Source: Bolinopsis microptera (lineage: Eukaryota; Ctenophora; Tentaculata; Lobata; Bolinopsidae). Taken from it: a stretch of 64,000 nt of DNA. How positions within the stretch are numbered: the first letter of the stretch is position 1; the number at the start of each line of letters is the position of its first letter. The stretch is taken from positions 20,481,510-20,545,509 of the forward strand of contig NC_087077.1 of NCBI RefSeq assembly GCF_026151205.1, written 5' to 3'. Positions 3,697 through 60,839 of this stretch are shown here, piece after piece. A model generated the notes under the pieces. The model ran no database searches. It was given only the letters and a program-made list of their open reading frames with translations, and was not told the DNA's origin. The position numbers and the translations under genes were made by a program.

Positions 3697-4222
3697 TTCA
3701 AGAAAACAACAATTTTTTTCAAGAAAACAACAATTTTTTATTTAAATCAATTATAGCAACAATTTGAATAACTTTAAAGTTCTTCTATTACCATGGAATA
3801 TACTACGGGTATGGTGACTTGGGCTATTGGGTTGTTAAGTAGATTAAGATTAGTAAACCTGCACTTGCATTGTATTTATAAAAACTAGAAATTAGGCTTC
3901 ACGGTAAAATGGAGAAGCAGGCTGATCTTGGAGAGAGCAGACCGTAAAGTTTACGCACCCACCAGGGCTACCTACCTACCCCAGTTGTTCTTTTTGGTTT
4001 ATCAGCTTGTATTGTTATATTTATGGACCCCAAGTCACCACACTAAGAAGGAGTATGTAAAAAAAAATAATAAGTTAAGTTAATATCATCATATCAGTTT
4101 AAAACAGTAAATGTTAAGTAGAGGATTGAATTTCCTAGTTAATTTAATGGTTCAAACGTTTGGGAATATAATAATGTTGGTATTTGTATCTGCTGCAGCA
4201 ATAATATCGATATGTCATTTGT
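3697..4222 (-). other. 3' untranslated region of the LINE
   Basis: This is non-coding sequence downstream of the ORF2 stop. It includes a TAGGTAGGTAG motif (plus strand CTACCTACCTAC near 3968) and the terminal duplicated TTGTTGTTTTCTTGAA block next to the interrupted pol gene. Confidence 0.55.
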
Positions 4223-9708: not shown

Positions 9709-9929
9709 GGTGAAGAAGCAATGGGGGTACCAGGCAGACCAGGGGGCACCTTCACGTCCAACCAGCACACTCACTGAAAAGAAGGAAGAGCAGAAAGTAG
9801 TTTGAAATGTTCTGTTGTGGAAAACAATGAAAGTGTAAACTGGATTAGTCAAAATGATTCAAAAGATTGAAAAATTGAACAGACTGACGGACTACGACAC
9901 ATGGGACAAGAGAGTGAGTGAGAGACTCA

Positions 9930-23500: not shown

Positions 23501-26500
23501 CTATCATGACATAACTTGGATGTTCTAGAATTGATAGCTATGTCTTAGAGTTTGAGAAATTAGCTTGGAACAATAATATTAAATAACTGATTGTTCTTAG
23601 TACTACCACTATGTTTAATAAAGAATGCAACAAAAGGAAGGAATAAGAAATATTATAATTATAATAAATGGTCAGCTAACCTTTTGTTAAACAGTCAATT
23701 AGTTAACCGACGACCAATAATTATTGTAACACATAACACAAAGTAGTTACCATAGTTACACTACTAGTTACCATAGTAACACATAACACAAAGTAGCCTC
23801 TAATTATTGTTACACATAACACAAAGTAGCCTCTCAAAGATTCACGAATCTTACTTACTTTACACTGTAAAATATCTAACTCTCTTGATGAAAAGTTATG
23901 TACACCTTCGTATACAACTGGCCCAATTTGCATCCGCATTTAAATATTTATTTGTGCAGGTTAAACAATGCTCTTATTGCGTGATCAGCGCCCCAATTTT
24001 ATAGTAAATGGAGATCGGAGAGATTTATTGAACATTAATAAACTAGTAAACTCAGTCTACTAAGTTAACCTCCCCTCGTAGAGCACAACATGTGCTCCTA
24101 GTGAAATTTGTTGATCAGTTTAAAGAAACTGTGCATGACCAGGCTAGTGAAATTTGTTGGCAGTTCAAAGAATCTGTGTGTGACCAGGCTTATCTTTTCG
24201 ACTTTTCAATAATTTAATTTGTGTTTCGTCATGAAATTCAGAAAATTTGGGTTGTTCGTGCGAAAGATAAGTGCGGCTGATAGGAGTAGTATCACGTGAT
24301 AATACTACTTCAATAGCACTAGTTGGCCCCTTGCCAAACCTGTGCCATCGTGATAATTCATTATCGTGTCTTAGTCTTGTAAATTTAACATTCTTTGGGT
24401 AAAGTTTTTTATTCGTGGCCCCCTCTTTCCAGCCTTGCGTTACCAGCCAGTTTTAGTCCCTTTAATCTAGAATGTGAGTACAAGGTTTTCAGTAGGAGTA
24501 TGACCCTAAGTCGTGTGTAGGTCTCGTTTTAAGCCACTATTCCTTTAGTTGTAGTCTGCTTGAAGAAGCACGAGTCTCGTTTTAAGCCACTATTCCTTTA
24601 GTTGTAGCCTGCTTGAAGAAGCACGTGTCTCGTTTTAAGCCACTATTCCTTTAGTTGTAGCCTGCTTGAAGAAGCACGTGTCTCGTTTTAGGCCACTATT
24701 CCTTTAGTTGTAGTCTGCTTGAAGAAGCACGTGTCTCGTTTTAGGCCACTATTCCTTTAGTTGTAGTCTGCTTGAAGAAGCACGTGTCTCGTTTTAAGCC
24801 ACTATTCCTTTAGTTGTAGCCTGCTTGAAGAAGCACGTGTCTCGTTTTAAGCCACTATTCCTTTAGTTGTAGCCTGCTTGAAGAATGAAGAAGCACGTGT
24901 CACTTTTTAAGCCACTATTCCTTTAGTTGTAGTCTGCTTGAAGAAGCACGTGTCTCGTTTTAAGCCACTATTCCTTTAGTTGTAGCCTGCTTGAAGAAGC
25001 AAGTGTCTCGTTTTAAGCCACTATTCCTTTAGTTGTAGTCTGCTTGAAGAAGCACGTGTCTCGTTTTAAGCCACTATTCCTTTAGTTGTAGCCTGCTTGA
25101 AGAAGCAAGTGTCTCGTTTTAAGCCACTATTCCTTTAGTTGTAGTCTGTTTGAAGAAGCACGTGTCTCGTTTTAAGCCACTATTCCTTTAGTTGTAGTCT
25201 GCTTGAAGAAGCACGTGTCTCGTTTTAAGCCACTATTCCTTTAGTTGTAGCCTGCTTGAAGAAGCAAGTGTCTCGTTTTAAGCCACTATTCCTTTAGTTG
25301 TAGTCTGCTTGAAGAAGCACGTGTCTCGTTTTAAGCCACTATTCCTTTAGTTGTAGCCTGCTTGAAGAAGCACGTGTCACTTTTTAAGCCACTATTCCTT
25401 TAGTTGTAGTCTGCTTGAAGAAGCACGTGTCTCGTTTTAAGCCACTATTCCTTTAGTTGTAGCCTGCTTGAAGAAGCAAGTGTCTCGTTTTAAGCCACTA
25501 TTCCTTTAGTTGTAGTCTGCTTGAAGAAGCACGTGTCTCGTTTTAAGCCACTATTCCGTTATTTGTACTTTGTATTCTGCTTGAAGAAGCACGAGTCTCC
25601 CTGCTCCTCCGACTGATGACTGTTTAGTTCTTGTACTAGTTAATTTGTCTGCCAAAAGCTCCTAAAGTCAGGTTAGAAATAGGTTGTCCCCTTCTAAAGG
25701 TGGTATTTCTACAGGGAAGAGTTTGAACACATTGTCCAAGTTCCTAAAAGAGTACAACACAACTAATCAGTACGTTGTGACAGTCCTCCCCGACGAAATG
25801 AGACACGAGGTACACATGCCTCCTTTCTTACAGTGCGGCACTTACAGTCACAACTTACTGGTAATTACTTTATATCTCGGAGCTCAATATAACAGATATA
25901 TCGTATCCAGATTTTTATGCTAAAATTTATTAACTCTGTTAAACATTTCCCCTCCACACTTAAATTTAAGCCTCTGTAATCTATCCAGGAGTTGAACCTG
26001 TGGATGGGATCAGGTGACACAGCTTCACAAGTACACTACGATGCTGACCACAATATACACTGTCTGCTTGCAGGTAATGTGTTCACGCACTGTAGTTATA
26101 TATGACAATACTCACTTTCCAATCATTCCTCTTAACATAAAACAACTTTGTTTTATGACAATACTTACACGATTACACGATTTTTACACGATTAGAAAAT
26201 TTATTAGTTATACTGGAATAATAACAATTTTAAAATTAAAAAAATACTCACTTTCCAATCATCCCTCTTAACATTTCCTCAATGTTTACCTTTTCAGGGA
26301 AGAAATCCTTCTTTATGATCCATCCTGACCAGTATCATAAGATGTATATGGAGCGATTAGAACACACTGGCTCTAATTACTGCCCCAATATAAACCAGGT
26401 GGGAATTATACCAGATATTTTGCATCTTTCTGTGCAAGCAGTGTATATTAGGCTATGTATTCTTAATATTCGTGGCACGCCCCCATTTCTTGCCCCCATA

Positions 26501-29500
26501 GAAACAAATAATGTTAGATTGTAAAATAAACCATCCTAAGGGTTTTTACTAAAATTGTGGCACAACTTGCCTCTATCAATAAAGCGTCTTATTACTTGCT
26601 CAATTATTGGTAAGTGATTTCCATCATAGTTGTTAATAGCTTAAGCAGACTAAGCTAGAGTAGGGTAGAAAATACTAGTAATAGCTCGATAATTAGCAAA
26701 TGACGAGATGAGGGCCGTGTCACAAAAATCTTGAATACACCCCCTATTATATAATATCCATCCTCTCTGTGATTATTTGAAGACTCATATAACTAACTGC
26801 ATGTGCGCGCAAACTCCAAATGACAATTTTGTTTACATCATTGCGCAACAAATACGCGCGGTTGCGCGCGCACATATTCATTATTCGAGTATATTATTGT
26901 GGCTCTTAAATTGTTTGGCTGGCATTATCAATTGAATACTAATATTCTCAAGATGTGTGTGTTCGTTCGCGTGTAATTTCCGAGCGGCTTAATCAAGAAA
27001 CCGGTAAAAGGTTCCTGTAAGTGCTCGGCCATGGTTGTCCGAAGTAAAAGAAAAAGGGTGGTTTTCATAGATGACCCTGCTGCCTTGCAGCTAAACAACG
27101 TAAAGTAAGTATTAGATATGTGGGAGGCACCCAGAATAAAATTGTGGTCTGTTTGGAATGAGCCAGTTCAATAAAAAAAAAGTGATTTTGCATGACTTAT
27201 TGTATATTCTGAACAACTCCAAAACAGAGGTACTGTTTCAGAACAGAGTGGATATGTTAGAACAAAGTAGCATTGCAGATGTAGATTACCAGTGGGACAT
27301 GCTCTACCCAGGCGACTGTATCTTTATCCCCGCCCAATACACTCATCAGGTAAATTTCATTCTTTCTTCTTTGTGTCTGTAATTTTAACATGTAAGATCA
27401 TGTCTCGCAAAAAACCGGAGAAAGGTTTGTTCAAAGTGACAATGTAGTATCTACCCAGGTCCGCTCTTACGGAAGAAGTTTATCAGTAACAATACTCTGG
27501 GTTACACTACTAGTTATCATAGTTACACTACTAGTTACCATAGTTACACTACTAATTACCCAGGTCCGCTCCTACGGAAGAAGTATATCAGTAACAATAC
27601 TCTGGGACCCAACTGTGCAGTTTGACATCAGCAGTCTGGTTAACTGCCTCCCCAATAACCTGTCCTCTATTGCTGACAACCATGTGGTACGTTTATAGTT
27701 TCTAATTACAAAGGTTGATAGGGCTCATTCATTAAAGTTATTAAAGTTAGTTACTGTAACACCACATATTTTCGCGGGCACTTATTTTCGCGGGAACTTA
27801 TTTTCGCGAATTTAAATGATTTAATGAAGAAATAAGCTGAAGGGGCTATATTATATTATTAAAAGAGCTCGTTAATACAATTAATAAATCTTGAAAAATG
27901 GAAATATTTGTTAATTTGGACTGTACCGAACTGATAATATGATAAACCAGTAATATGCTTAATGAAGCTATGAAGTAATGTTGACATCATTGTTAATGTT
28001 AGATCTTCTGATGATACTTGACGTTCTTTTAGGTACATGATGCATTCATTTTGATAAGTTTATAGCATGTTGAACTAAGACTAAGCGTTGTTGATGAGTT
28101 TACACATCAGTGACTGACAATGTACCTGAATGCTTTTTTCACTAATTCACTTTGTATGTCGTCATGGAATTTAGAAAATCCGGGTCGGTCGAAAGATAAG
28201 AAGGATAAAGTTAAAGTGTGGCCTGGTCAACTGTCACCCCCCCCCCCCCCCCCCCCTGTGGCCTTAATATCATTACTAGGTACATTTTACAACGAATAAG
28301 CAATATCTATGTTTTTAAAATGCAGGTTACAAATCTTTTAAAATCATGCAATAAAAATTATAGATATACAGTTTACAGTATAAAAATCAAAGCGAAAATC
28401 ATAGCGGTATGATGAAAAACATTGTCATAAACAATATAAATAATTCACCCGTGCAAATGTGTGTACAATAGGTATAACTAGCAAAAGATTATATTCATCT
28501 TAAGTAACAGTCTTTTTTTGGTTCAGTACCCCGGCTGTGCTGATTCTGTCCTAGCGTGTTCTGTCTTACTGTTTAGTAGTAGAAGAGTTCAATAGCACCA
28601 AGGTAGTCCTTGATCCATTCTCCGAAGATGGTGTATTTTTGTCCAGCGTCGGTCAGTTTACCGCTCACACTTCGGCTGATATCAGCATCGAATCTGAAAG
28701 GAAATGACGTAAGAAGTCAATAAAATTTACCTTACTATGTAGTATGACAGTAAGATTTGCAGAGTAAGAAATCAATAAGGAATAAAAAGCAGAGAATCTT
28801 ATATAAAGTTTAAACTCACTGGGGTCCCAGGAAGTAGGTGATAGAGTATCTATCAAAGTCAACTTCAGCAACTCTGTGTCTGACTGAGGGCACCTTGTTG
28901 TCGATAAGGTCATCTACCAGCTTTCCGATGTTGACGATGAAGGAGTTTTCTCCGGTCACAGGAACGGCTCGGTACTGGTTCTTGTAGAGCACCTAAAAGA
29001 TTTCATCGTTTAAAAATTGAAAGAATTCTCGTTTAGTGGCTGAGAGTTATGAAAATATTAATTGACCTTTCATCTGGATCAAATTTTAAGGGGAGCACAT
29101 TTCAAATTTTGCATTAGGATTTAAATTGTTACCTCAAGACCATCGTTGTTGAAGGTGGAGAGGACGGTGACGGTAGAGTCAATGTGTTCCAGTTCTCTCA
29201 GGAGAGTTCCGTCAAAGTCAGAGTACATGTTGCTGTTGATCCTTTGAGAAATGTATTGTCAGAAAGGATTGGTAAACAAGAGGTTATTTAAATTAAGGAA
29301 ATAAAGGTAATTCTAAGGTTATTTAGGATTCAGAACGTGAGCGAATATACGTGACTCTAAAGTCTGACAATTCGGCTGATAGTACTGGACGAAGAAGAAT
29401 GTGTCTTACTTTCTTCGGATGGGGTATTTCCTGAGTCCCATAGCAGAGAACTCGTCCTCAGAAAAGAGAGCGGGCAGGTTGGGGTACTCCATGGCTCGGG

Positions 29501-32500
29501 CAATGCTCCTGATGAAAGCTCTTCCGACGTTCCTCCTGATTTCGAATCCAGCCTGGAAGGTCTCCTTGAATACTTTGTCGAAGGTGCAGTTACCGGTCTC
29601 GGGCCATACGTTGGGTTCCTGGCAGTCGTATCTGAGTTTCTCGAGGATGTCGTCACTCTCGAAGCTTGCAGCTCGGGTCTCGTGGGGTCCAATGTTGTAG
29701 AGGTTCTTGTATTGGAGGGTGTTCTCAACATCGTCAAGTCCGGGGCAGTATCCTGGATATTGGTTATTTTAGCGCCATATTCAAGAATTGCATCACCTGT
29801 ATTAGCAAAATTATAAATCTTAGATAATTTGTATGATAAATGAAAATTAATTAAATGATCACCTCGATAAGCATTCTTGTTGGCGGGGTTGTGTCTCCTG
29901 ATAGCAATCTCGTCCTTGACATCCTCATCCAGATCGTAGAACTGCTTCATGATGTCCTGCTCAAGAGAAGCGCTGTACTCAGGGACATCCACAACGTAGA
30001 AGTATCCGTATTTCTTCATGGACTGGAGGAGGAAGGGGTCGATGTAGGAGTTGTCGTTGAGGAGGTCCAAGTATGGGATTCTGGCTACCCCATCGAACAC
30101 ACCCTCATTTTGTTCCGGTCACAGTCTGCAGGATTAATGATTGGTTATGATTGGTTCAAAACTGTTTGGAAAAAGTTAATCCTTGCAATTATAGGTTGCT
30201 GCTTAATGATTAATAATTAAGTATGTTTATCTTCGAAGTTATGTACTTACTTTTCCAAAAGGTCGGGAAGTAAAGCTGTTGCAGGAGCAACCAAAAGTAA
30301 AACCAGTGCGAACAGTTTCATAGCTATAATAAGATTTAGTAGGATTAAAGTCACTGCAAATTAGGAATTTAAGTACTTTAAATTAATTAATCAGCGAATA
30401 TAATTGGGAGTTTTCCGGACTTAATTGGGAGCAACATTTCTAATAAATAATTTAAATGAACAATAAAACAGAAATATCAGCGTTTTATAATGCATTTCAA
30501 TTGTATGGAAATAGTAGATAATCCTTAAATATAAAATGTATATGTGTACAAAGTTTTAGTTTAAAATAATCCTAGTCTTTACGGCAAAGAAAAAGTTTAG
30601 AAAATTTAAATTTCTCAATTTCTAAACAAAAATTCAGTCAAACATTTAGGTCCACTTATTTTAGAAGATGTCGTCATTTCATTCAAAAACCTTCGTTATG
30701 CCGAAGGTAATTGAATTCCTCATACCGTTTCAATCTAACCACGCTGAGAGTTCATCATCTCCTAAGGATTAAAGGCTGTCATAAAAAGTAATAAGGTTTT
30801 AATAACAGGACATTTGTAAACCTAAATAATAAATAATTCAAAGATTCTTAGCAAAACTTCGATGGGTCTTTACAGGATTTGAGGAGTTAGCAGTAAATGT
30901 ATAGTTTTTGAGGATCTTACTGTTTAGTAGTAGAATAGTTCAATAGCACCAAGGTAGTCCTTGATCCATTCTCCGAAGATGGTGTATTTTTGTCCAGCGT
31001 CGGTCAGTTTACCGCTCACACTTCGGCTGATATCAGCATCGAATCTGAAAGGAAATGACGTAAGAAGTCAATGAAATTTACCTTACTATGTAGTATGACA
31101 GTAAGATTTGCAGAGTAAGAAATAAATAAGGAATAAAAAGCAGAGAATCTTAAAAACAAAGTTTAAACTCACTGGGGTCCCAGGAAGTAGGTGATAGAGT
31201 ATCTATCAAAGTCAACTTCAGCAACTCTGTGTCTGACTGAGGGCACCTTGTTGTCGATCAGGTCATCTACCAGCTTTCCGATGTTGACGATGAAGGAGTT
31301 TTCTCCGGTCACGGGAACGGCTCGGTACTGGTTCTTGTAGAGCACCTAAAAGATTTCATCGTTTAAAAATTGAATGAATTTTCGTTTAGTGGCTGAGAGT
31401 TATGAAAATATTAATCGACCTTTCATCAATATCAAATTTTATAGAGCACATTTCAAATTTTGCATTAGGATTTAAATTGTTACCTCAAGACCATCGTTGT
31501 TGAAGGTGGAGAGGACGGTGACGGTAGAGTCAATGTGTTCCAGTTCTCTCAGGAGAGTTCCGTCAAAGTCAGAGTACATGTTGCTGTTGATCCTTTGAGA
31601 AATGTATTGTCAGAAAGGATTGGTAAACAAGAGGTTATTTAAATTAAGAAAATAAAGGTAATTCAAAGGTTATTTAAGGATTCATAACGTGAGCGAATAT
31701 ACTTGACTCTAAAGTCTGACAATTGGGCTGATAGTACTGGACGAAGAAGAATGTTTCTTACTTTCTTCGGATGGGGTATTTCCTGAGTCCCATAGCAGAG
31801 AACTCGTCCTCAGAAAAGAGAGCGGGCAGGTTGGGGTACTCCATGGCTCGGGCAATGCTCCTGATGAAAGCTCTTCCGACGTTCCTCCTGATTTCGAATC
31901 CAGCCTGGAAGGTCTCCTTGAATACTTTGTCGAAGGTGCAGTTACCGGTCTCGGGCCATACGTTGGGTTCCTGGCAGTCGTATCTGAGTTTCTCGAGGAT
32001 GTCGTCACTCTCGAAGCTTGCAGCTCGGGTCTCGTGGGGTCCAATGTTGTAGAGGTTCTTGTATTGGAGGGTGTTCTCAACATCGTCAAGTCCGGGGCAG
32101 TATCCTGGATATTGGTTATTTTAGCGCCATATTCAAGAATTGCATCACCTATATTAGCAAAATTATAAATCTTAGATAATTTGTATGATAAATGAAAATT
32201 AATTAAATGATCACCTCGATAAGCGTTCTTGTTGGCGGGGTTGTGTCTCCTGATAGCAATCTCGTCCTTGACATCCTCATCCAGATCGTAGAACTGCTTC
32301 ATGATGTCCTGCTCAAGAGAAGCGCTGTACTCAGGGACATCCACAACGTAGAAGTATCCGTATTTCTTCATGGACTGGAGGAGGAAGGGGTCGATGTAGG
32401 AGTTGTCGTTGAGGAGGTCCAAGTATGGGATTCTGGCTACCCCATCGAACACACCCTCATTTTGTTCCGGCCACAGTCTGCAGGAGTGATGATTGGTAAT

Positions 32501-35500
32501 GATTCGTTAACTGTTTGGAAAAGGTTAATCCTTGCAATTATAGGTTGCTGCTTAATGATTAATAATTAAGTATGTTTATCTTCGAAGTTATGTACTTACT
32601 TTTCCAAAAGGTCGGGAAGTAAAGCCGTTGCAGGAGCAACCAAAAGTAAAACCAGTGCGAACAGTTTCATAGCTATAATAAGATTTAGTAGGATTAAAGT
32701 CACTGCAAATTAGGAATTTAAGTACTTTAAATTAATTAATCAGCGAATATAATTGGGAGTTTTCCGGACTAAATTGGGAGCAACATTTCTAATAAATAAT
32801 TTAAATGAACAATAAAACAGAAATATCAGCGTTTTATAATGCATTTCAATTGTATGGAAATAGTAGATAATCCTTAAATATAAAATTTATATGTGTACAA
32901 AGTTTTAGTTTAAAATAATCCTAGTCTTTACGGCAAAGAAAAAGTTTAGAAAATTTAAATTTCTCAATTTCTAAACAAAAATTCAGTCAAACATTTAGGT
33001 CCACTTATTTTAGAAGATGTCGTCATTTCATTCAAAAACCTTCGTTATGCCGAAGGTAATTGAATTCCTCATACCGTTTCAATCTAACCACGCTGAGAGT
33101 TCATCATCTCCTAAGGATTAAAGGCTGTCATAAAAAGTAATAAGGTTTTAATAACAGGACATTTGTAAACCTAAAATAATAAAATAATTCAGAGATTCTT
33201 AGCAAAATTTCGATGGGTCTTTACAGGATTTGAGGAGTTAGCAGTAAATGTATAGTTTTTGAGGATCTTACTGTTTAGTAGTAGAAGAGTTCAATAGCAC
33301 CAAGGTAGTCCTTGATCCATTCTCCGAAGATGGTGTATTTTTGTCCAGCGTCAGTCAGTTTACCGCTCACACTTCGGCTGATATCAGCATCGAATCTGAA
33401 AGGAAATGACGTAAGAAGTCAATGAAATTTACCTTACTATGTAGTATGACAGTAAGATTTGCAGAATAAGAAATCAATAAGGAATAAAAAGCAGAGAATC
33501 TTAAAAACAAAGTTTAAACTCACTGGGGTCCCAGGAAGTAGGTGATAGAGTATCTATCAAAGTCAACTTCAGCAACTCTGTGTCTGACTGAGGGCACCTT
33601 GTTGTCGATCAGGTCATCTACCAGCTTTCCGATGTTGACGATGAAGGAGTTTTCTCCGGTCACGGGAACGGCTCGGTACTGGTTCTTGTAGAGCACCTAA
33701 AAGATTTCATCGTTTAAAAATTGAAAGAATTTTCGTTTAGTGGCTGAGAGTTATGAAAATATTAATCGACCTTTCATCAAGATCAAATTTTATAGAGCAC
33801 ATTTCAAATTTTGCATTAGGATTTAAATTGTTACCTCAAGACCATCGTTGTTGAAGGTGGAGAGGACGGTGACGGTAGAGTCAATGTGTTCCAGTTCTCT
33901 CAGGAGAGTTCCGTCAAAGTCAGAGTACATGTTGCTGTTGATCCTTTGAGAAATGTATTGTCAGAAAGGATTGGTAAACAAGAGGTTATTTAAGTTAAGG
34001 AAATAAAGGTAATTCTAAGGTTATTTAAGGATTCATAACGTGAGCGAATATACTTAACTCTAAAGTCTGGCATTTCGGCTGATAATACTGGACGAAGAAG
34101 AATGTTTCTTACTTTCTTCGGATGGGGTATTTCCTGAGTCCCATAGCAGAAAACTCGTCCTCAGAAAAGAGAGCGGGCAGGTTTGGGTACTCCATGGCTC
34201 GGGCAATGCTCCTGATGAAAGCTCTTCCGACGTTCCTCCTGATTTCGAATCCAGCCTGGAAGGTCTCCTTGAATACTTTGTCGAAGGTGCAGTTACCGGT
34301 CTCGGGCCATACGTTGGGTTCCTGGCAGTCGTATCTGAGTTTCTCGAGGATGTCATCACTCTCGAAGCTTGCAGCTCGGGTCTCGTGGGGTCCAATGTTG
34401 TAGAGGTTCTTGTATTGGAGGGTGTTCTCAACATCGTCAAGTCCGGGGCAGTATCCTGGATATTGGTTATTTTAGCGTCATATTCAAGAATTGCATCATC
34501 GATAGTAGTAAAATTATAAATCTTAGATAATTTTTATGATAAATGAAAATTAATTAAATGATCACCTCGATAAGCATTCTTGTTGGCGGGGTTGTGTCTC
34601 CTGATAGCAATCTCGTCCTTGACATCCTCATCCAGATCGTAGAACTGCTTCATGATGTCCTGTTCCAGAGAAGCGCTGTACTCAGGGACATCCACAACGT
34701 AGAAATATCCGTATTTCTTCATGGACTGGAGGAGGAAGGGGTCAATGTAGGAGTTGTCGTTGAGGAGGTCCAAGTATGGGATTCTGGCTACCCCATCGAA
34801 CACACCCTCATTTTGTTCGGGCCACAGTCTGCAGGATTAATGATTGGTTATGATTGGTTCAAAACTGTTTGGAAAAAGTTAATCCTTGCAATTATAGGTT
34901 GCTGCTTAATGATTAATAATTAAGTATGTTTATCTTCGAAGTTATGTACTTACTTTTCCAAAAGGTCGGGAAGTAAAGCTGTTGCAGGAGCAACCAAAAG
35001 TAAAACCAGTGCGAACAGTTTCATAGCTATAATAAGATTTAGTAGGATTAAAGTCACTGCAAATTAGGAATTTAAGTACTTTAAATTAATAAATCAGCGA
35101 ATATAATTGGGAGTTTTCCGGACAAAATTGGGAGCAACATTTCTAATAAATAATTTAAATGAACAATGAAACAGCAATATCAGCGTTTTATAATGCATTT
35201 CAATTGTATGGAAATAGTAAATAATCCTTAAATATCAAATTTATATTATGTGTACAAAGTTTTAGTTTAAAATAATCCTAGTCTTTACGGCAAACAAAAA
35301 GTTTAGAAAAATTTAAATTTCTCAATTTCTAAACAAAAATTCAGTCAAACATTTAGGTCCATTTATTTTAGAAGATGTCGTCATTTGATTCAAAAACCTT
35401 CGTTTTGCCGAAGGTAATTGAATTCCTCATACCGTTTCAATCTAACCACGCTGAGAGTTCATCTCCTAAGGATTAAAGGCTGTCATAAAAAGTAATAAGG

Positions 35501-38500
35501 ATTTAATAACAGGACATTTGTAAACCTAAAATTAATTCAAAGATTCTTAGCAAAATTTCGATGGGTCTTTACAGGATTTGATGAGTTAGCAGTGCAGTAA
35601 ATGTATAGTTTTTGAGGATCTTACTGTTTAGTAGTAGAAGAGTTCAATAGCACCAAGGTAGTCCTTGATCCATTCTCCGAAGATGGTGTATTTTTGTCCA
35701 GCGTCAGTCAGTTTACCGCTCACACTTCGGCTGATATCAGCATTGAATCTGAAATGACGTAAGAAGTCAATGAAATTTACGTTACTATGTAGTATGGCAG
35801 TAAGATTTGCAGAGTAAGAAATCAATGAGGAATAAAAAGCAGAGCATCTTAAATAAAGTTTAAACTCACTGGGGTCCCAGGAAGTAGGTGATAGAGTATC
35901 TATCAAAGTCAACTTCAGCAACTCTGTGTCTGACTGAGGGCACCTTGTTGTCGATGAGGTCATCTACCAGCTTTCCGATGTTGACGATGAAGGAGTTTTC
36001 TCCGGTCACGGGAACGGCTCGGTACTGGTTCTTGTAGAGCACCTAAAGATTTCATCGTTTAAAAATTGAAAGAATTCTCGTTTAGTGGCTGAGAGTTATG
36101 AAAAGTTTAATTGACATTTCATCAGGATCAAATTTTATAGAGCACATTTCAAATTTTGCATTAGGATTTAAATTGTTACCTCAAGACCATCGTTGTTGAA
36201 GGTGGAGAGGACGGTGACGGTAGAGTCAATGTGTTCCAGTTCTCTCAGGAGAGTTCCGTCAAAGTCAGAGTACATGTTGCTGTTGATCCTTTGAGAAATG
36301 TATTGTCAGAAAGGATTGGTAAACAAGAGGTTATTTAAATTAAGGAAATAAAGGTAATTCTAAGGTTAATACATGATGAAGAAGAATGTTTCTTACTTTC
36401 TTCGGATGGGGTATTTCCTGAGTCCCATAGCAGAGAACTCGTCTTCAGAAAAGAGAGCGGGCAGGTTGGGGTACTCCATGGCTCGGGCAATGCTCCTGAT
36501 GAAAGCTCTTCCGACGTTCCTCCTGATTTCGAATCCAGCCTGGAAGGTCTCCTTGAATACTTTGTCGAAGGTGCAGTTTCCAGTCTCGGGCCATACGTTG
36601 GGTTCCTGGCAGTCGTATCTGAGTTTCTCGAGGATGTCATCACTCTCGAAGCTTGCAGCTCGGGTCTCGTGGGGTCCAATGTTGTAGAGGTTCTTGTATT
36701 GGAGGGTGTTCTCAACATCGTCAAGTCCGGGGCAGTATCCTGGATATTAGTTATTTTAGCGCCATATTCAAGAATTGCATCACCTATATTAGCAAAATTA
36801 TAAATCTTAGATAATTTTTATGATAAATGAAAATTAATCAAATGATCACCTCGATAAGCATTCTTGTTGGCGGGGTTGTGTCTCCTGATAGCAATCTCGT
36901 CCTTGACATCCTCATCCAGATCGTAGAACTGCTTCATGATGTCCTGTTCCAGAGAAGCGCTGTACTCAGGGACATCCACAACGTAGAAATATCCGTATTT
37001 CTTCATGGACTGGAGGAGGAAGGGGTCAATGTAGGAGTTGTCGTTGAGGAGGTCCAAGTATGGGATTCTGGCTACCCCATCGAACACACCCTCATTTTGT
37101 TCCGGCCACAGTCTGCAGGAGTGATGATTGGTTATGATTGGTTAACTGTTTGGAAAAAGTTAATCCTTGTAATTATAGGTTGCTTCATAATCGTTTATAG
37201 TCGGTCAGATTATTGCAATAGTTTCTTTTTCGAACCCATGATTCTTAAATAAGTATGTTTAACTCTGAAATTATGTACTTACTTTTCCAAAAGGTCGGGA
37301 AGTAAAGCTGTTGCGGGAGCAACCAAAAGTAAAACCAGTGCGAACAGTTTCATAGCTATAATAAGATTCGGTAGAATTAAAGTCACTGCAAATTAGGAAT
37401 TTTAGTACTTCACCGAATACAATTAGGAATTTTTCCCGACAAAATTGGGAGCAACATTTCTAATAAATACTTTTTAAATGAACAATGAAACAGCAATATC
37501 AGCGTTTTATAATGCATTTCAATTGTATGGAAATAGTAGGTAATCCTTAAATATCAAATTTATATGTGTACAAAATTTTAGTTTAAAATAATCCTAGTCT
37601 TTACGGCAAAGAAAAAGTTTAGAAAAATTGAAATTTCTTCATTTTAGAGTTTGCTTATCTTAACAATAATTTAGTTACACATGTAATTCTAATGTCCATT
37701 TATTTCAGAAGATGTCGTCATTTCATTTATAGACCGTTGTTATGTCGAAGGTATCTGAATTTCTCATACCGTTTCAATCTAACCACGTTGAGAACTCATC
37801 CTCATCTCCTAAGGATTGATAAGCTGTCATAAAAAGTAATTAGGACTTAATGACAAGAAATTTGTAAACCTAAAATAATTCAAAGATTCTTAGCAAAATT
37901 TTGATGGGTCTTTACAGGATTTGAGGAGTTAGCAGTAAATGTATAGTTTTTGAGGATCTTACTGTTTAGTAGTAGAAGAGTTCAATAGCACCAAGGTAGT
38001 CCTTGATCCATTCTCCGAAGATAGTGTATTTTTGTCCAGCGTCGGTCAGTTTACCGCTCACACTTCGGCTGATATCAGCATCGAATCTGAAAGGAAATGA
38101 CGTAAGAAATCAATGAAATTTACCTTACTATACATAGTAATCTTACTGTCATACTACATGTAGTATGACAGTAAGATTTGCAAAGTAAGAAATCAATAAG
38201 GAATAAAAAGCAGAGAATCTTAAACAAAGTTTAAACTCACTGGGGTCCCAGGAAGTAGGTGATAGAGTATCTATCAAAGTCAACTTCAGCAACTCTATGT
38301 CTGACTGAGGGCACCTTGTTGTCGATGAGGTCATCTACCAGCTTTCCGATGTTGACGATGAAGGAGTTTTCTCCGGTCACGGGAACGGCTCGGTACTGGT
38401 TCTTGTAGAGCACCTAAAAGATTTTATCGTTTAAAGATTGAAAGAATTCTCGTTTAGTGGCTGAGAGTTATGAAAATATTAATTGACCTTTCGTCAGGAT

Positions 38501-41500
38501 CAAATTTTATAGAGCACATTTCAAATTTTGCATTAGGATTTAAATTGTTACCTCAAGACCATCGTTGTTGAAGGTGGAGAGGACGGTGACGGTAGAGTCA
38601 ATGTGTTCCAGTTCTCTCAGGAGAGTTCCGTCAAAGTCAGAGTACATGTTGCTGTTGATCCTTGAGAAATGTATTGTCAGAAAGGATTGGTAAACAAGAA
38701 GTTATTTAAATTAAGGAAATAAAAGTAATTCTAAGGTTAATACTGGACGAAGAAGAATGTTTCTTACTTTCTTCGGATGGGGTATTTCCTGAGTCCCATA
38801 GCAGAGAACTCGTCCTCAGAAAAGAGAGCGGGCAGGTTGGGGTACTCCATGGCTCGGGCAATGCTCCTGATGAAAGCTCTTCCGACGTTCCTCCTGATTT
38901 CGAATCCAGCCTGGAAGGTCTCCTTGAATACTTTGTCGAAGGTGCAGTTTCCAGTCTCGGGCCATACGTTGGGTTCCTGGCAGTCGTATCTGAGTTTCTC
39001 GAGGATGTCGTCACTTTCGAAGCTTGCAGCTCGGGTCTCGTGGGGTCCAATGTTGTAGAGGTTCTTGTATTGGAGGGTGTTCTCAACATCGTCAAGTCCG
39101 GGGCAGTATCCTGGATATTAGTTATTTTAGCGCCATATTCAAGAATTGCATCACCTATATTAGCAAAATTATAAATCTTAGATAATTTTTATGATAAATG
39201 AAAATTAATCAAATGATCACCTCGATAAGCATTCTTGTTGGCGGGGTTGTGTCTCCTGATAGCAATCTCGTCCTTGACATCCTCATCCAGATCGTAGAAC
39301 TGCTTCATGATGTCCTGCTCAAGAGAAGCGCTGTACTCAGGGACATCCACAACGTAGAAATATCCGTATTTCTTCATGGACTGGAGGAGGAAGGGGTCAA
39401 TGTAGGAGTTGTCGTTGAGGAGGTCCAAGTATGGGATTCTGGCTACCCCATCGAACACACCCTCATTTTGTTCCGGCCACAGTCTGCAGGAGTGATGATT
39501 GTTTATGATTGGTTAACTGTTTGGAAAAGGTTAATCCTTGCAATTATAGGTTGCTGCATAATCGTTTATAGTCGGTCAGATTATTGCAATAGTTTCTTTT
39601 TTGAACCCATGATTCTTAAATAACTATGTTTAAATTATGTACTTACTTTTCCAAAAGGTCGGGAAGTAAAGCTGTTGCTGGAGCAACCAAAAGTAAAACC
39701 AGTGCGAACAGTTTCATAGCTATAATAAGATTCGGTAGAATTAAAGTCACTGAAAATTAGGAATTTAAGTACTTCACCGAATACTATTGGGAGTTTTCCC
39801 GACAAAATGGGGAGAAACATTTCTAATAAATACTTTTTAAATGAACAATGAAACAGCAATATCAGCGTTTTATAATGCATTTCAATTGTATGGAAATAGT
39901 AGGTAATCCTTAAATATCAAATTTATATGTGTACAAAATTTTAGTTTAAAATAATCCTAGTTAAGTCTTTACGGCAAAGAAAAAGTTTATAAAAATTGAA
40001 ATTTCTTCATTTTAGAGTTTGCTTATCTTAACAATAATTTAGTTACACATGTAATTCTAATGTCCATTTATTTCAGAAGATGTCGTCATTTCATTTATAG
40101 ACCTTTGTTATGTCGAAGGTATCTGAATTTCTCATACCGTTTCAATCTAACCACGTTGAGAACTCATCCTCATCTCCTAAGGATTGATAAGCTGTCATAA
40201 AAAGTAATTAGGACTTAATGACAAGAAATTTGTAAACCTAAAATAATTCAAAGATTCTTAGCAAAATTTCGATGGGTATTTACAGGATTTGAGGAGTTAG
40301 CAGTAAATGTATAGTTTTTGATGATCTTACTGTTTAGTAGTAGAAGAGTTCAATAGCACCAAGGTAGTCCTTGATCCATTCTCCGAAGATGGTGTATTTT
40401 TGTCCAGCGTCGGTCAGTTTACCGCTCACACTTCGGCTGATATCAGCATCGAATCTGAAAGGAAATGACGTAAGAAGTCAATGAAATTTACCTTACTATG
40501 TAGTATGACAATAAGATTTGAAGAGTAATAATTGTCTTGTTTGTAATTTGTAAAGTTCGTAGATTCCTCTACAGGGTCATCGAATAGTTCGATCGCCCTT
40601 GTTTTACAGTACACTACATTGTAGATGTTCTGAAGGAGTATCCTACGATTCTTGATCTTTTGGCACAGGCATCTCTCCTCATTTAACCCTCAATCAAGTT
40701 TCCTATCCGTCGGTTGAGTCGACCGAGGAGATCGCATAGATCCAATGAATCCTTAGCTACTCCCTAAACTGAGTGACACAGGGATTCGAACCCTTAACCT
40801 TCTGTACAGAAGGTGGAAGCTCTAACCACTAGGCCACCCAGCCCCAGTAAGAAATCAATAAGGAATAAAAAGCAGAGAATCTTAAACAATGTTTAAACTT
40901 ACTGGGGTCCCAAGAAGTAGGTGATAGAGTATCTATCAAAGTCAACTTCAGCAACTCTATGTCTGACTGAGGGCACCTTGTTGTCGATGAGGTCATCTAC
41001 CAGCTTTCCGATGTTGACGATGAAGGAGTTTTCTCCGGTCACGGGAACGGCTCGGTACTGGTTCTTGTAGAGCACCTAAAAGATTTCATCGTTTAAAAAT
41101 TGAAAGAATTTTCGTTTAGTGGCTGAGAGTTATGAAAATATTAATTGACCTTTCGTCAGGATCAAATTTTATAGAAGACATTATAAATTTAGCATTAGGA
41201 TTTAAATTTTTACCTCAAGACCATCGTTGTTGAAGGTGGAGAGGACGGTGACGGTAGAGTCAATGTGTTCCAGTTCTCTCAGGAGAGTTCCGTCAAAGTC
41301 AGAGTACATGTTGCTGTTGATCCTTTGAGAAATGTATTGTCAGAAAGGATTGGTAAACAAGAGGTTATTTAAGTTAAGGAAATAAAGGTAATTCTAAGGT
41401 TATTTAAGGATTCAGAACGTGAGCGAATACATATGAATCTAAATTGTAAATGTACGGCTGATAGTACTGGACGAAGAAGATCATTTCTTACTTTCTTCGG

Positions 41501-44500
41501 ATGGGGTATTTCCTGAGTCCCATAGCAGAGAACTCGTCCTCAGAAAAGAGAGCGGGCAGGTTGGGGTACTCCATGGCTCGGGCAATGCTCCTGATGAAAG
41601 CTCTTCCGACGTTCCTCCTGATTTCGAATCCAGCCTGGAAGGTCTCCTTGAATACTTTGTCGAAGGTGCAGTTACCAGTCTCGGGCCACACGTTGGGTTC
41701 CTGGCAGTCGTATCTGAGTTTCTCGAGGATGTCATCACTCTCGAAGCTTGCAGCTCGGGTCTCGTGGGGTCCAATGTTGTAGAGGTTCTTGTATTGGAGG
41801 GTGTTCTCAACATCGTCAAGTCCGGGGCAGTATCCTGGATATTGGTTATTTTAGTGCCATATTCAAGAATTTTATCATCGATAGTAGTAAAATTATAAAT
41901 CTTAGATAACCCGTATGATAAACGAAAATTAATTAAATGATCACCTCGATAAGCGTTCTTGTTGGCGGGGTTGTGTCTCCTGATAGCAATCTCGTCCTTG
42001 ACATCCTCATCCAGATCGTAGAACTGCTTCATGATGTCCTGCTCAAGAGAAGCGCTGTACTCAGGGACATCCACAACGTAGAAATATCCGTATTTCTTCA
42101 TGGACTGGAGGAGGAAGGGGTCAATGTAGGAGTTGTCGTTGAGGAGGTCCAAGTATGGGATTCTGGCTACCCCATCGAACACACCCTCATTTTGTTCCGG
42201 CCACAGTCTGCAGGAGTGATGATTGGTTATGATTCGTTAAATGTTTGGAATAAGCTAATCATTTCAATTATAGGTTGCTGCATAATTGTCTATAGTTGGG
42301 CAGATTATTGTAATAGTTTATTTTTCGAACCCATGATTCTTTGTGTAGTTATGGCAACCAGTATTTGAGAGGTAAATTTATAAACTCACATGATAAATAT
42401 ACTCACTTTTCCAAAAGATCGGGAAGTAAAGCTGTTGCTGGAGCAACCAAAAGTAAAACCAGTGCGAACAGTTTCATACCTAAAACAACATAAAATCAAG
42501 TTAATCTTAGGCCCAAGTTCACTACAAATATTTGAATTTACTTCATGGATTTAAATATCGACGAATTTACTATCAAGGACACGTAAAGGGCGTCATTTAG
42601 AGATATAGAATGTGTTATGAACAAAGAGGTCAAAGTGGACATTGGCTCGAGAGCAAACATGAGAACTTTTCCTCTCGAGAATTGTGAGGATGACTGAACA
42701 GAGGAGTCTATTTAAATGCTTTTGTGGCATCATGTGATCATGTGATTGCAACTCCAATTACACCTCTGCAACGTGGTAAATGCGATTTTAGAGATAAGGA
42801 AACCAGAATAGAACAAGCTGTTCCACGCTGCAGTTTTGGCAAGCTGCACTAAATTAAATCAAAAGTATCATGGTAATTGTACCAGCCTATTTTCGTAGCA
42901 GATAAGGTTTTAAATGCTTGATATCTTTATTGATATCAAAAACAACGGACGCGGATGTAAAAAAGCAGCTTCTGTTATATTCCTGGTCTTAAGCAAGATT
43001 AGGCGAGGAACTTGATAATATCTAACAGTATTAGAAAGTGCAGGCATGGAGTTACCTTTTCTTGGAAAAATCTAGATAACAAATCTAGATGCTTAATAAT
43101 CCAAGTCAAACTAACTGAATAAACTTTGTAATATTTCATGTGATTCGAATTTACTAAAGGCCATGACTTGAGCCCAATGACTTACCCCTTTTTTCAGTAC
43201 TCTTACTTACTAAAATATAAGATAATATTATACATGTTAAAAATTTTTGACGCACAAATTAAGTTTTGCACAAACCATTTTATTACGGGTTGATTATCCG
43301 GGGTCCCTTATTTTAACGCCACTTTTTAACTGCATTGGTACTGTGATATTTTATCCAAGTAAAAGGACATGACGATGGTAGACGAGTGTCTGGGTGAATT
43401 TAAAGTTGGAAACTCAGCTCTGCTAATCTGTTAGAGAACGGTTTCTTTAAAGCTTTCTGTAAAGAACTGGTTTCCACAGTAACACGTGTAGTTGTAAAGA
43501 ACCTGTCGACTTTTTTGTTGGGGACTGGCCCGTGGTACCAGCCAATGTTTACTCATATCAATGGTAATAAGAAATTCAACCCCGTGGGGCACATGCATAA
43601 ATATATTATGTAAAGGAAATCTCAATTTATTTAATTTAGACTCTACCGGTAAAGTACAATGAAGGTTTATAACTTAAAGTTTTATTTCTCAAATGGTTAA
43701 TAGGTAACAGATAAAAAATAAAACAAGACTGAGCACTTCATAATTTTAAGAATTGAGATAATTTTAAGAATTGACTTAGTTTTTTCAATTTTTAAAATGG
43801 ACGGCGTGTTTGTAACTTGATTTGAAATACGCAGAGATATAAAAGAATGTTGGCAGTGTAATTGATGAGATATGCGACGTTTATTGAGTGATGCTTAAGT
43901 TTGTGCATTATATAATCTAAGATGTAGAGACAAGGTTATTATCGGCATTTTGGTTTATGTTACGCTTTGATTTTCTTAGTCCTGTTATGCAAAATAACAT
44001 GAAATTAGGCCATTCGTCTTCGATGTTTTCATTTTGCTGATCGATGAGCATAGTTTTTATACAAGTTTTATAAATGTTCAGGTTAAATAGACTCGGCGGG
44101 GAAGTTGCTGCAACATTATATCGGTTTATTGCTAATAATGGACCTTTAAAAAATACTGAGTTGTTGTAAGGGTGTTGACCATACTTTTCTGACCATTGTG
44201 TATAACCATTAGTTATCTGCGGTGCAGTTAGAACTTCTGCAGCTTAGTTTTCTGCGGTGCAGTTAGAACTTTTGCAGCTACGGTATCTGATATATCTAAT
44301 TGTACCACTCGAACTTCAAATTTTTGGATATCAAATTTTACCAATATCTTATAATAAAATTATATATCAATAATTCAATTTGTCCATTGAACCTCATGTA
44401 CTTCAAAATTCCAATATTTATTCAGCGATACATCTCACGTCATTAGTTCACCAGAAGCAGGAAAATAAGTAGCCCAGTTTTAATATCTCACTCATTTACT

Positions 44501-53500: not shown

Positions 53501-56500
53501 TACCGAGTCTGTAAAGGAACCATGTTCAGCCCTCTAACCACCTCTCATACTGAGTCTGTAAAGGAACCATGTTCAGCCTCTAAGCACCTCTCATACCGAG
53601 TCTGTAAAGGAACCATGTTCAGCCCTCTAACCACCTCTCATACTGAGTCTGTTTTAATTAAAGCAATTCAGATCTGCGTATATTCGGTTATTAAATCTCA
53701 TAAGAGGTCTACAACAACTACTATGTCTACAATCTAATATAATGCTACAATCTGATGCTTATGTGATAGAATTCGCATTATAGCTTTATAGCTAGACGAC
53801 CCTATTTGACAATAAATCGTATTATGAAACCCTTATTAACTCCCTTACAATGCTATAATATAATATACCTCTTAAATAAGACCAATAAAAACCAACGTCT
53901 GCTCACTGGTGTTCCACCAAAATGTGGTAATGCAATGTATTACGCTAATATTATGCTAATTTAGCGTATATGAGGTTGATGTCACAATTACCACCAATTT
54001 AACTGTGATATTTTCAGGTGTGGAATCACAAGATGGGGGACATATTCCTTGACGTGGGCTATGCTACCCCCCACATTATGCGGAAGGAAGTGGGGCAAGT
54101 GTGGGCAGAGTGGACACATAGGTTACACCAGGTTTGTTACTTTTTTATTCATATTTAAAAGAGTGTACGACTTTCCGCCCCTTGTTATTTCGTGCCATAA
54201 CGGCTAAGGGTAAAATGCTGGGACCTAATCAAGTATAGTTTTTTGTTGACTATACGTGCAACAGTCTGCTTAATAAATGGTTCTTGGGGTTCATTTAAAA
54301 TTGTATTTCAGGAAGGAGCAGATTCTCCAGAAGGCTGGAGTTACAATGAGTTTATTTCTTTAATGTTCGATTTAAAGAGGTGGCATCTCCCCGAGTGCAC
54401 GGTATTTTGTTTTAGCATTAACTTATATGGTAGCGTTACTATGGTAACACTATATTCCTGCAATACACTAGAAGCTGGGTTGTACTGATAACATTACCTT
54501 ATATGGTGGTATTACTATGGTTATTATGGTACCTTATATGGTAGCGTTACTATGGTAACAATGCATTCCTGCAGTACACTAGAAGCTGGGTTGCACTGAT
54601 AACATTACCTTATATGGTAGCGTTACTATGGTAACACTATATTCCTGCAGTACACTAGAAGCTGGGTTGCACTGATAACATTACCTTATATGGTAGCGTT
54701 ACTATGGTAACACTACATTCCTGCAGTACACTAGAAGCTGGGTTGCACTGATAACATTACCTTATATGGTGGTATTACTATGCTACCTTATATGGTAGCG
54801 TTACTATGGTAACACTGTATTCCTGCAGTACACTAGAAGCTGGGTTGCACTGATAACATTACCTTATATGGTGGTATTACTATGGTTATTATGGTACCTT
54901 ATATGGTAGCGTTACTATGGTAACACTGCATTCCTGCAGTACACTAGAAGCTGGGTTGCACTGATAACATTACCTTATATGGTAGCGTTACTATGGTAAC
55001 ACTATATTCCTGCAGTACACTAGAAGCTGGGTTGCACTGATAACATTACCTTATATGGTAGCGTTACTATGGTAACACTACATTCCTGCAGTACACTAGA
55101 AGCTGGGTTGCACTGATAACATTACCTTATATGGTGGTATTACTATGGTACCTTATATGGTAGCGTTACTATGGTAACACTATATTCCTGCAGTACACTA
55201 GAAGCTGGGTTGCACTGATAACATTACCTTATATGGTAGCGTTACTATGGTAACACTATATTCCTGCATTACACTAGAAGCTGGGTTGCACTGATAACAT
55301 TACCTTATATGGTAGCGTTACTATGGTAACACTATATTCCTGCAGTACACTAGAAGCTGGGTTGCACTGATAACATTACCTTATATGGTAGCGTTACTAT
55401 GGTAACACTGCATTCCTGCAGTACACTAGAAGCTGGGTTGCACTGATAGCATTACCTTATATGGTGGTATTACTATGCTACCTTATATGGTAGCGTTACT
55501 ATGGTAACACTATATTCCTGCAGTACACTAGAAGCTGGGTTGCACTGATAACATTACCTTATATGGTGGTATTACTATGGTTACTATGCTACCTTATATG
55601 GTAGCGTTACTATGGTAACACTGTATTCCTCCAGTACACTAGAAGCTGGGTTGCACTGATAGCATTACCTTATATGGTAGCGTTACTATGGTACCTTATA
55701 TGGTAGCGTTACTATGGTAACACTGCATTCCTGCAGTACACTAGAAGCTGGGTTGCACTGATAGCACACGGACTTGACACAGATCACAGTCTCCTCATCT
55801 CCCCTGCCGAGATAGAGTCCTCCTCAGACCAGCTCATGAAGGCTGTGTCTCACTTTGTGGACGCTCCTAATCTTAACGATGAGATTTATAACTTCTGTCA
55901 AACTCAGTTCTTCTACATTCCCCCGGAGGTGGGTTTGTTTTAGCATTACCTTATTTGGTAGTGTTACTATGGTAACACTATATTCCTGCAGTACACTAGA
56001 AGCTGGGTTGCACTGATAGCACACGGACTAGACACTGATCACAGTCTCCTCATCTCCCCTGCCGAGATAGAGTCCTCCTCAGACCAGCTTATGAAGGCTG
56101 TGTCTCACTTCGTGGACGCTCCTAATCTTAACGATGAGATTTATAACTTCTGTCAAACTCAGTTCTTCTACATTCCCCCGGAGGTGGGTTTGTTTTAGCA
56201 TTACCTTATTTGGTAGTGTTACTATGGTAAAATTACCTTATTTGGTAGTATAACTTCCGTCAAACTCAGTTCTTTTACTTTTTCCCGGAGGTGGGTTCGT
56301 GAAGTTAGATTTCAATTTCATGGATAAACAAGAAATGCGGCCGCTTTTCTTTTGTGGATGGCCGCTCAATTTCCCAAATCGTGATGGCGTATTTTTATTT
56401 ATATTCCATACAACCTGGGGACCCCAGTCGTTATTGTTTATAAGTCATGGATCGGGAAAAAATGAAAAAATATGAGTTATTTATTATTCTTTGGTATTGG

Positions 56501-59449: not shown

Positions 59450-60838
59450 GTAACTGCTGTGTGTTCCTTTTTGAATCTGTTGTCGCACTCTGCTCTTATA
59501 AACATTAATTCTGTTTTTTATAAAGATCGTTCATTTTGGCAAAGGCTTCAGCTTCTTAAATTTTGACCATTTTGAAGGCTTCTCCATTTTTAAGTCACCG
59601 CAACCCGTCTTTAATTTTCAGTGCAAGAATCTTACGTTCAATAATTAATATAAATGCGCATAATTAATTGTAAGAAAGTCATTTAAGACAACTCGGGTGT
59701 GTTATCATACCTCACACCCATCCCAAATAGTGATATACCAAATCATTCTTCATATCAGTGCTATGTGGTCAAATTGGGAATTGGGATAAGAATCAATTTT
59801 TGAGATCGAGAATGAGTTTTTCGCCTCTCATGATCCCCCCGAGCGTGCTAAATCAGTCGATCTTCGAGATTGTTCTAAAAGGGCCCCCGACAGTTGAAAC
59901 CTACTTTAATCGATGCATTTTCGAACGCTGATTCCGAATCACCCCCCATGACATAGGGTTAAAATGCTCCCCTGACGAGATATTGGCGAAAAACTGTCTC
60001 GATCACGTGATATGATTACGACCATTATATAAGGAAGTTAATCTAATTTCTCGTTAGGGTTAGGGTTTTAGCATATGCTTTTGTTAAGGATTGGGTTAGG
60101 GTTAGAGTTGGGATCAGATTTATAAAGGGTTAGGGTTTTCGAATAGTCGTTCGGGACCAGCTAGAAGTAGAGAACGGGTTAAAAAAGTCACGTGACAGTC
60201 GAGTGTAGAGTGATCAATCATCCCCCCAAACTTTAAAGTATATAATATTATGTTAAATTATTATCAAAAATAATAAGGTATTTACCTTATTCAAGGTCCA
60301 ACAAATTTGCGTATATTCTCCACTTTTGATTTTGGGCTGTTAAATTTGCCAAAAAATATGGAAACGTGCAGCACTTTTAAATTGAAAAGTTAAAATAATT
60401 TACCATTTTTTGTGCGTATTTAACAAACCAAAAATAAAACTTGAATTCAAATTTAGGAGCACGCACTTATTTTTGTTCCCGTGGTTGTATTTTTCAAAAA
60501 ATTCGGCAATTTAATTTCTGGGAAAAATTCGTATGTTAATAGAATATGACATATTACCATAACACACTATTACAGCTCAAAACTATGTGGTTAAACGACG
60601 CCAGGCAGTATCCAAACTAGGGTTGCCGTAACTAGGGTTGCAAATAGTTCCCTGAAAAGAAGGCTACCCAGGAGTGCATATCATCGACTATCATTGTAAT
60701 CCCGCCAGACAGGGCAAACCAGGTATGAGGTACATTATATATTATTGCATATCATTCGGATTCGGTCAAGCAGGTTTCACTCTTGCAGACTATCATTTTA
60801 ATCTAGAGAGAGGTTAATTTACAGCAAATAATTCAACA
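59450..60838. other. Non-coding, with dispersed and telomere-like repeats
   Basis: Holds the inverse copy of the 50836 repeat (about 59850-59930) and degenerate TTAGGG repeats (60056-60140). No coding region is seen. Confidence 0.4.
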
Positions 60839-60839
60839 C

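Follow-up and report, generated by a model that had tools for sequence, protein, structure and literature searches.

FYY proteins, which are Fe(II) oxidases resembling isopenicillin N synthase (IPNS) and ending in Phe-Tyr-Tyr, are the published candidates for the biosynthesis of coelenterazine, a very widespread marine luciferin, in animals. Francis et al. (2015; PMC4488382) reported them from nearly all luminous ctenophores of a 24-species set and did not find them in two non-luminous ctenophores, Pleurobrachia and Hormiphora. That account already proposed both a role in coelenterazine synthesis and self-cleavage of the FYY tail, and it described a tandem pair of FYY genes from Mnemiopsis; FYY proteins were better conserved than the non-FYY groups, which occur in non-luminous ctenophores. 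According to a 2018 paper (PMC6140675), the coelenterazine idea was then without a test by expression or knock-out, and no functional test of FYY proteins was announced in the titles and abstract openings of the literature searched. Here we describe a tandem array of six FYY genes in a stretch of 64,000 nucleotides of Bolinopsis microptera (the window, C6:20481510-20545509), which was analyzed together with the whole genome (264.65 Mb in 232 contigs). Since the family, the hypothesis, and the tandem layout were known, six genes in a row are an extension; what is new is the strict selection on the whole enzyme within the array, with selection and gene conversion both measured.

Results

The six genes lie on the minus strand and follow one another head to tail from 42477 down to 28573 (Table 1). 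Every copy consists of six exons (71, 263, 343, 109, 173, and 121 nucleotides [nt]) separated by GT-AG introns, whose five positions are common to all copies, and the stop-to-next-ATG gaps between copies measure 602 to 616 bp. In each of the six, the spliced frame comprises 359 codons and ends with GAIELFYY-stop. A preliminary description of this DNA had the extent of the array and the 359-aa length exactly right, and the C-terminal ELFYY that it noted is indeed shared by every copy. Its six complete enzymes became five: the catalytic motifs and the tail are encoded in all six frames, but codon 26, TGG in the five open copies, is TGA in copy 6.

Copies 1, 2, 4, and 5 encode identical proteins. 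The array units are 95 to 100% identical in repeat families D1 to D8, which cover exon 3. Coding sequences differ pairwise by 0.6 to 1.4% (6 to 15 of 1,080 nt), and between 0 and 24% of aligned intron sites differ between copies. These differences are distributed over exons, introns, and spacers, a pattern that speaks against a simple duplication made by the assembly.

Table 1. Positions of the FYY genes of the array within the window (exons in the order of transcription)
Feature	Position	Strand	Details
FYY copy 1	40334..42477	-	Exons 42477-42407, 42207-41945, 41834-41492, 41322-41214, 41075-40903, 40454-40334; 359 aa, open; distinct upstream region
FYY copy 2	37966..39717	-	Exons 39717-39647, 39483-39221, 39110-38768, 38660-38552, 38413-38241, 38086-37966; protein as copy 1
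FYY copy 3	35628..37353	-	Exons 37353-37283, 37112-36850, 36739-36397, 36288-36180, 36042-35870, 35748-35628; single missense change D322N
FYY copy 4	33275..35024	-	Exons 35024-34954, 34828-34566, 34455-34113, 33943-33835, 33696-33524, 33395-33275; protein as copy 1
FYY copy 5	30924..32670	-	Exons 32670-32600, 32477-32215, 32104-31762, 31592-31484, 31345-31173, 31044-30924; protein as copy 1
FYY copy 6	28573..30321	-	Exons 30321-30251, 30125-29863, 29752-29410, 29241-29133, 28992-28820, 28693-28573; TGA at codon 26, rest open including the FYY tail
Copy 6 premature stop, codon 26	30119..30121	-	In-frame TGA

By its sequence, the array encodes the IPNS-like Fe(II) oxidase that Francis et al. 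(2015) described as the ctenophore FYY protein. The product matched Pfam 2OG-FeII_Oxy (E 6.6e-10), with DIOX_N slightly below the cut-off, and a single-sequence search of solved structures placed ethylene-forming enzyme and IPNS on top (E of about 6e-6). We then built a family profile and alignment from four members of this genome, namely FYY copy 1, the diverged FYY paralogue B, and two non-FYY paralogues (L016 and L017); against solved structures, IPNS was its best match (E 1.8e-19), profile positions 35-324 aligning with IPNS 7-294. H245-x-D247, H301, R310-x-S312, and Y221 are present in the six translated array frames, and all four members of the alignment share these six residues. The sequence family and the metal-site residues accordingly assign the protein to the IPNS/2OG-oxygenase superfamily, and profile, motifs, and tail together bear out the identification made in the preliminary description, whose account of FYY-tailed IPNS homologues with a proposed coelenterazine role in luminous ctenophores is likewise published (PMC4488382). 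NCBIfam returned no family for any of the four members. Within this genome, the A-type and B proteins are 84% identical, with 46% and 36% identity to the two non-FYY paralogues, which places the array protein nearer to FYY than to the non-FYY groups. In prokaryotes, a scan limited to two short peptide patterns yielded a single weak relative, from a Bdellovibrio metagenome-assembled genome (24% identity). A single chain holds both the oxidase domain and the terminal FYY. At the N-terminus of the FYY genes, a hydrophobic leader with PATA-LL was recognized by eye, and the protein probably enters the secretory pathway. At the other end, 34 residues follow the last aligned pair in FYY and 37 in IPNS, as counted in the single-sequence alignment.

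The six array copies differ in 26 codons, of which 24 vary purely synonymously, one carries a missense change (D322N), and one the nonsense change of copy 6. Synonymous divergence (dS) ranged from 0.022 to 0.063, and nonsynonymous divergence (dN) did not exceed 0.0012. Under neutrality, the binomial probability of two or fewer non-silent changes is 2e-14 for 26 changes and 1e-15 for 28, in a test that treats codon changes as independent. The whole FYY protein is therefore under strong selection, because nearly exclusively synonymous changes combined with intron divergence indicate selection on the protein and not mere recent origin. The tail calls for a different conclusion. Given the observed number of changes, the chance of finding its 9 nt unchanged is P=0.79, so an invariant tail is what chance predicts, and invariance inside the array is no evidence of tail selection or tail function. 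The preliminary description had taken the unchanged tail to mean that the tripeptide is selected; we rejected this sign, since nearly the whole protein is unchanged and even the stopped copy 6 retains the tail.

Elsewhere in the genome, three further FYY loci were found, all on contig C4. One is an intact dispersed copy, A7 (L015), a single amino acid off copy 1; another is the full-length paralogue B (L013), which also ends in GAIELFYY; and the third (L014) consists of two fragments of exons 3-6 in inverted orientation to each other, one with a frameshift, for which no exons 1-2 were found. About seven FYY genes are thus open, comprising five array copies, A7, and B. The two non-FYY paralogues lie on C12 (L016) and C6 (L017). 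A genome-wide search for the GAIELFYY-stop pattern gave 22 matches, all within FYY-family loci. Ten are ends of genes or fragments, six of them in the array, and the other 12 are repeats that follow B-type genes. Reversing the pattern as a control gave no match genome-wide.

The flanks of A7 bear on the history of the array. Among the flanks compared, copy 1 is the sole match to A7 on the 5′ side (82% over 73 bp), and copy 6 is the sole match on the 3′ side (89% over 300 bp); copy 1 has an upstream sequence of its own, and copies 2 to 6 have one in common. A7 would therefore preserve, on either side, the outer flank of one ancestral gene, from which the array probably expanded via internal tandem duplication. 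In many FYY and photoprotein genes, an acceptor-like TAG stands immediately or shortly upstream of the ATG, a sign of possible trans-splicing or of introns farther upstream, so that the true promoters need not adjoin the ATG.

Comparison of A with B revealed that synonymous divergence is uneven along the gene, being 0.17 and 0.09 in exons 3-4 versus 1.8 and 1.4 in exons 1-2 (P 4e-12). The lower values in exons 3-4 point to gene conversion. In the last 18 codons, one nonsynonymous difference was counted in about 44 sites, versus 10 in about 50 sites for the 21 codons before them (P 0.009). The last 18 codons show less synonymous divergence as well (0.375 versus 1.73; P 0.10), and conversion may therefore account for some of the tail conservation. 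The case for selection specific to the tail comes from the between-species data of Francis et al. and not from the array locus.

Photoprotein genes were searched for with an aequorin query, the counts being lower bounds. At least 60 matches were obtained, at least 53 of them at E<1e-9; by contig, the 53 strong matches are distributed as 8 on C1, 4 on C2, 13 on C3, 15 on C5, 1 on C9, 1 on C10, and 11 on C13. The one photoprotein tested is berovin/mnemiopsin-like (E of about 1e-121). By these genes, the animal appears to be of the luminous type, in line with the link drawn earlier between the array and such an animal. None of the 53 strong matches falls on the FYY contigs C6 and C4; C6 has two of the seven weaker ones (E 0.08 and 0.81), too weak to count as photoprotein evidence. 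We also scanned ten window segments, which yielded a Cupin_8 domain, ankyrin repeats, an ion-channel match below the cut-off, reverse-transcriptase open reading frames (ORFs), and, within a retroelement-like ORF, a domain of the AlkB type, one segment being empty. No obvious peptide-cyclizing or protease gene was recognized in these ten segments, other ORFs on both sides not having been family-searched. The "cluster" of the preliminary description is thus a single repeated gene and not a physical luminescence or pathway cluster, given the absence of strong photoprotein matches on C6 and C4 and of a pathway gene in the ten segments. Six translated photoproteins start with MPLDE... or MPGL..., and no leader was visible in them by eye.

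Several further features of the window were recorded. Nearest to the array among the scanned segments, and convergent with it, is a Cupin_8 gene with JmjC-like exons, a putative Fe(II) oxygenase (25980-27379, plus strand). A long interspersed element (LINE)-like element occupies 4223-9852 (minus strand); its first ORF, 7723-9852, contains an AlkB-type 2OG-FeII_Oxy_2 domain (E 1.4e-18), has a weak, below-cut-off GDSL esterase match, and adjoins an endonuclease/reverse-transcriptase-like ORF named by eye. At 55692-56230 (plus strand), a 255-bp tandem duplication contains a pair of 78-aa frames that are nearly identical and may represent a coding exon present twice. A tRNA-like insertion that looks like a short interspersed element was noted by eye in the fifth intron of copy 1 (about 40847-40550, minus strand); ARAGORN makes no call for it. 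Rfam at the gathering threshold and ARAGORN found nothing in the window. Tandem repeats are abundant across it; a link between the array and the minisatellite at 60835-62871, considered because of loose TTCTACTACTAA scan matches, was discarded, as the period-35 unit is unrelated to the FYY exon.

Minisatellites also accompany other members of the family. In B-type FYY genes (L013:2-776; L014:412-715 and 3580-3883), the stop codon is followed downstream by a 38/46-bp repeat whose unit joins the last-exon end (AIELFYY-stop) to a splice-donor-like sequence. Repeats of an exon 3′ end plus splice donor were likewise seen by eye within introns of L016 (about 6740-6380 and 3700-3390). As this equivalent repeat occurs in a non-FYY gene, the AIELFYY-stop minisatellite was rejected as an FYY-specific signal; exon-end/splice-donor repeats suggest a recurrent route for seeding minisatellites in this genome. 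On C10 (L035, 285-1376), we noted a single-exon 363-aa ORF of a DIOX_N-type oxygenase, unlike the multi-exon FYY relatives.

Discussion

The reading that we tentatively favor, at a little less than an even chance, is that the locus was amplified for dose and encodes a single secreted, IPNS-like mononuclear Fe(II) oxidase, which acts catalytically in the making of coelenterazine and uses the tail as an active-site lid. Tandem amplification of one FYY gene would raise the dose of a single enzyme, and strong selection would have acted on the entire protein while the five open copies and the early-stopped one diverged. The enzyme may catalyze, on a separate substrate, an oxidative step, ring-forming or dehydrogenating, toward coelenterazine from Phe/Tyr units, and its C-terminal GAIELFYY would be a flexible tail closing over the active site as the IPNS C-terminus does. 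In IPNS, the penultimate Gln330 coordinates the iron in the substrate-free enzyme, and the seven C-terminal residues then enclose the bound tripeptide (PMC5637899). Because about as many residues separate the C-terminus from the aligned core in FYY as in IPNS, the tail could plausibly sit in the active site, and we favor a lid over a self-substrate because the rest of the enzyme is just as unchanged in the array as the tail and because about seven open FYY genes face 53 strong photoprotein matches. A precedent for dose is provided by the photoprotein clusters of Mnemiopsis, whose maintenance has been ascribed to purifying selection together with concerted evolution (PMC3570280). A coelenterazine role of the FYY array genes is plausible.

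Several considerations weigh against this reading. Conversion among copies could inflate the apparent count of shared silent changes, and the placement of the lid is derived solely from sequence length. The leader-like N-terminus of FYY contrasts with the six translated photoproteins, in which no leader was visible by eye; any part of the enzyme in coelenterazine synthesis has to accommodate this compartment mismatch. Furthermore, both non-luminous species belong to one family, so that, by our own reasoning, the correlation with luminescence reflects about one loss.

It is also possible, though somewhat doubtful, that the IPNS-like oxidase works outside luminescence, for example by being secreted and modifying the matrix, the mucus, or some defensive metabolite, and carries its FYY end by happenstance. 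The genome does contain the non-FYY paralogues L016 and L017, whose like occur in non-luminous ctenophores (PMC4488382); no linkage of the array to photoprotein genes was found, and a leader-like N-terminus would suit such a protein. Against this, FYY tracks luminescence and is better conserved than the non-FYY groups in the data of Francis et al. (2015; PMC4488382), and the array combines strong conservation with amplification.

Alternatively, the FYY protein might cyclize and release the C-terminal Phe-Tyr-Tyr of its own or a neighboring molecule as coelenterazine, the array existing because each molecule is used once. If true, this would be a ribosomal-peptide luciferin factory in animals. 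The tail does match the coelenterazine backbone in all six array copies, A7, and B, and it lies about where the IPNS C-terminus meets iron. Moreover, the fungal borosins provide a parallel in which the precursor acts on the core at its own C-terminus (PMC7878506), and A and B differ far less in their last 18 codons than just before them. However, the array is uninformative on the tail, its entire enzyme being equally invariant, and the A-B contrast may be gene conversion, although the synonymous difference is weak taken singly. The ratio of open FYY genes to strong photoprotein matches is, we infer, unlike a one-for-one demand, and no protease or cyclase partner was recognized in the ten nearby segments scanned. 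We consider self-consumption unlikely, and quite unlikely in the form in which the oxidase cyclizes its own FYY held in the active site, releases coelenterazine, and has had its gene amplified as every enzyme is spent once. A neutral or recent copy-number polymorphism, or an assembly expansion, devoid of dosage function is very unlikely: one copy is already stopped and tandem repeats abound in the window, but the coding and intron differences imply that most copies are neither assembly echoes nor brand new, and the nearly all synonymous coding changes that they diverged under selection.

The locus provides a contiguous, multi-copy genomic view of FYY genes, and the inventory of five open array copies, one dispersed copy, and one full-length paralogue is relevant to any knock-out.

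Comparison with described systems places the dose-amplified oxidase array that we favor among several partial likenesses. Borosins such as OphMA (PMC7878506) offer, as an idea only, the use of an enzyme's own C-terminus as core peptide, but OphMA is a methyltransferase, not an oxidase, and for FYY the likeness is one of anatomy. IPNS (PDB 1bk0) shares with FYY the H-x-D...H and RxS motifs and a C-terminus in about the same relative place; it differs in that the last 35 or so FYY residues have no sequence match to it, Gln330 has no assigned counterpart, and the FYY N-terminus is leader-like. The Mnemiopsis photoprotein clusters described by Schnitzler et al. (2012; PMC3570280) resemble the array in their tandem, head-to-tail arrangement, regular spacing, purifying selection, and the dose argument, but they encode a different, single-exon protein, whose genes lie on other contigs in this genome. 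Closest are the FYY genes of Mnemiopsis (ML199826a, MLRB263543, and others; PMC4488382), which likewise encode an IPNS-like Fe(II) oxidase with a GAIELFYY end, a RELEHxD motif, and an ATA-LL leader, and for which Francis et al. gave the same numbering of Y221, H245, D247, H301, and R310-S312. In contrast to the tandem pair reported there, B. microptera has six in tandem, one of them stopped, in addition to a dispersed copy, a full-length paralogue, and two fragments.

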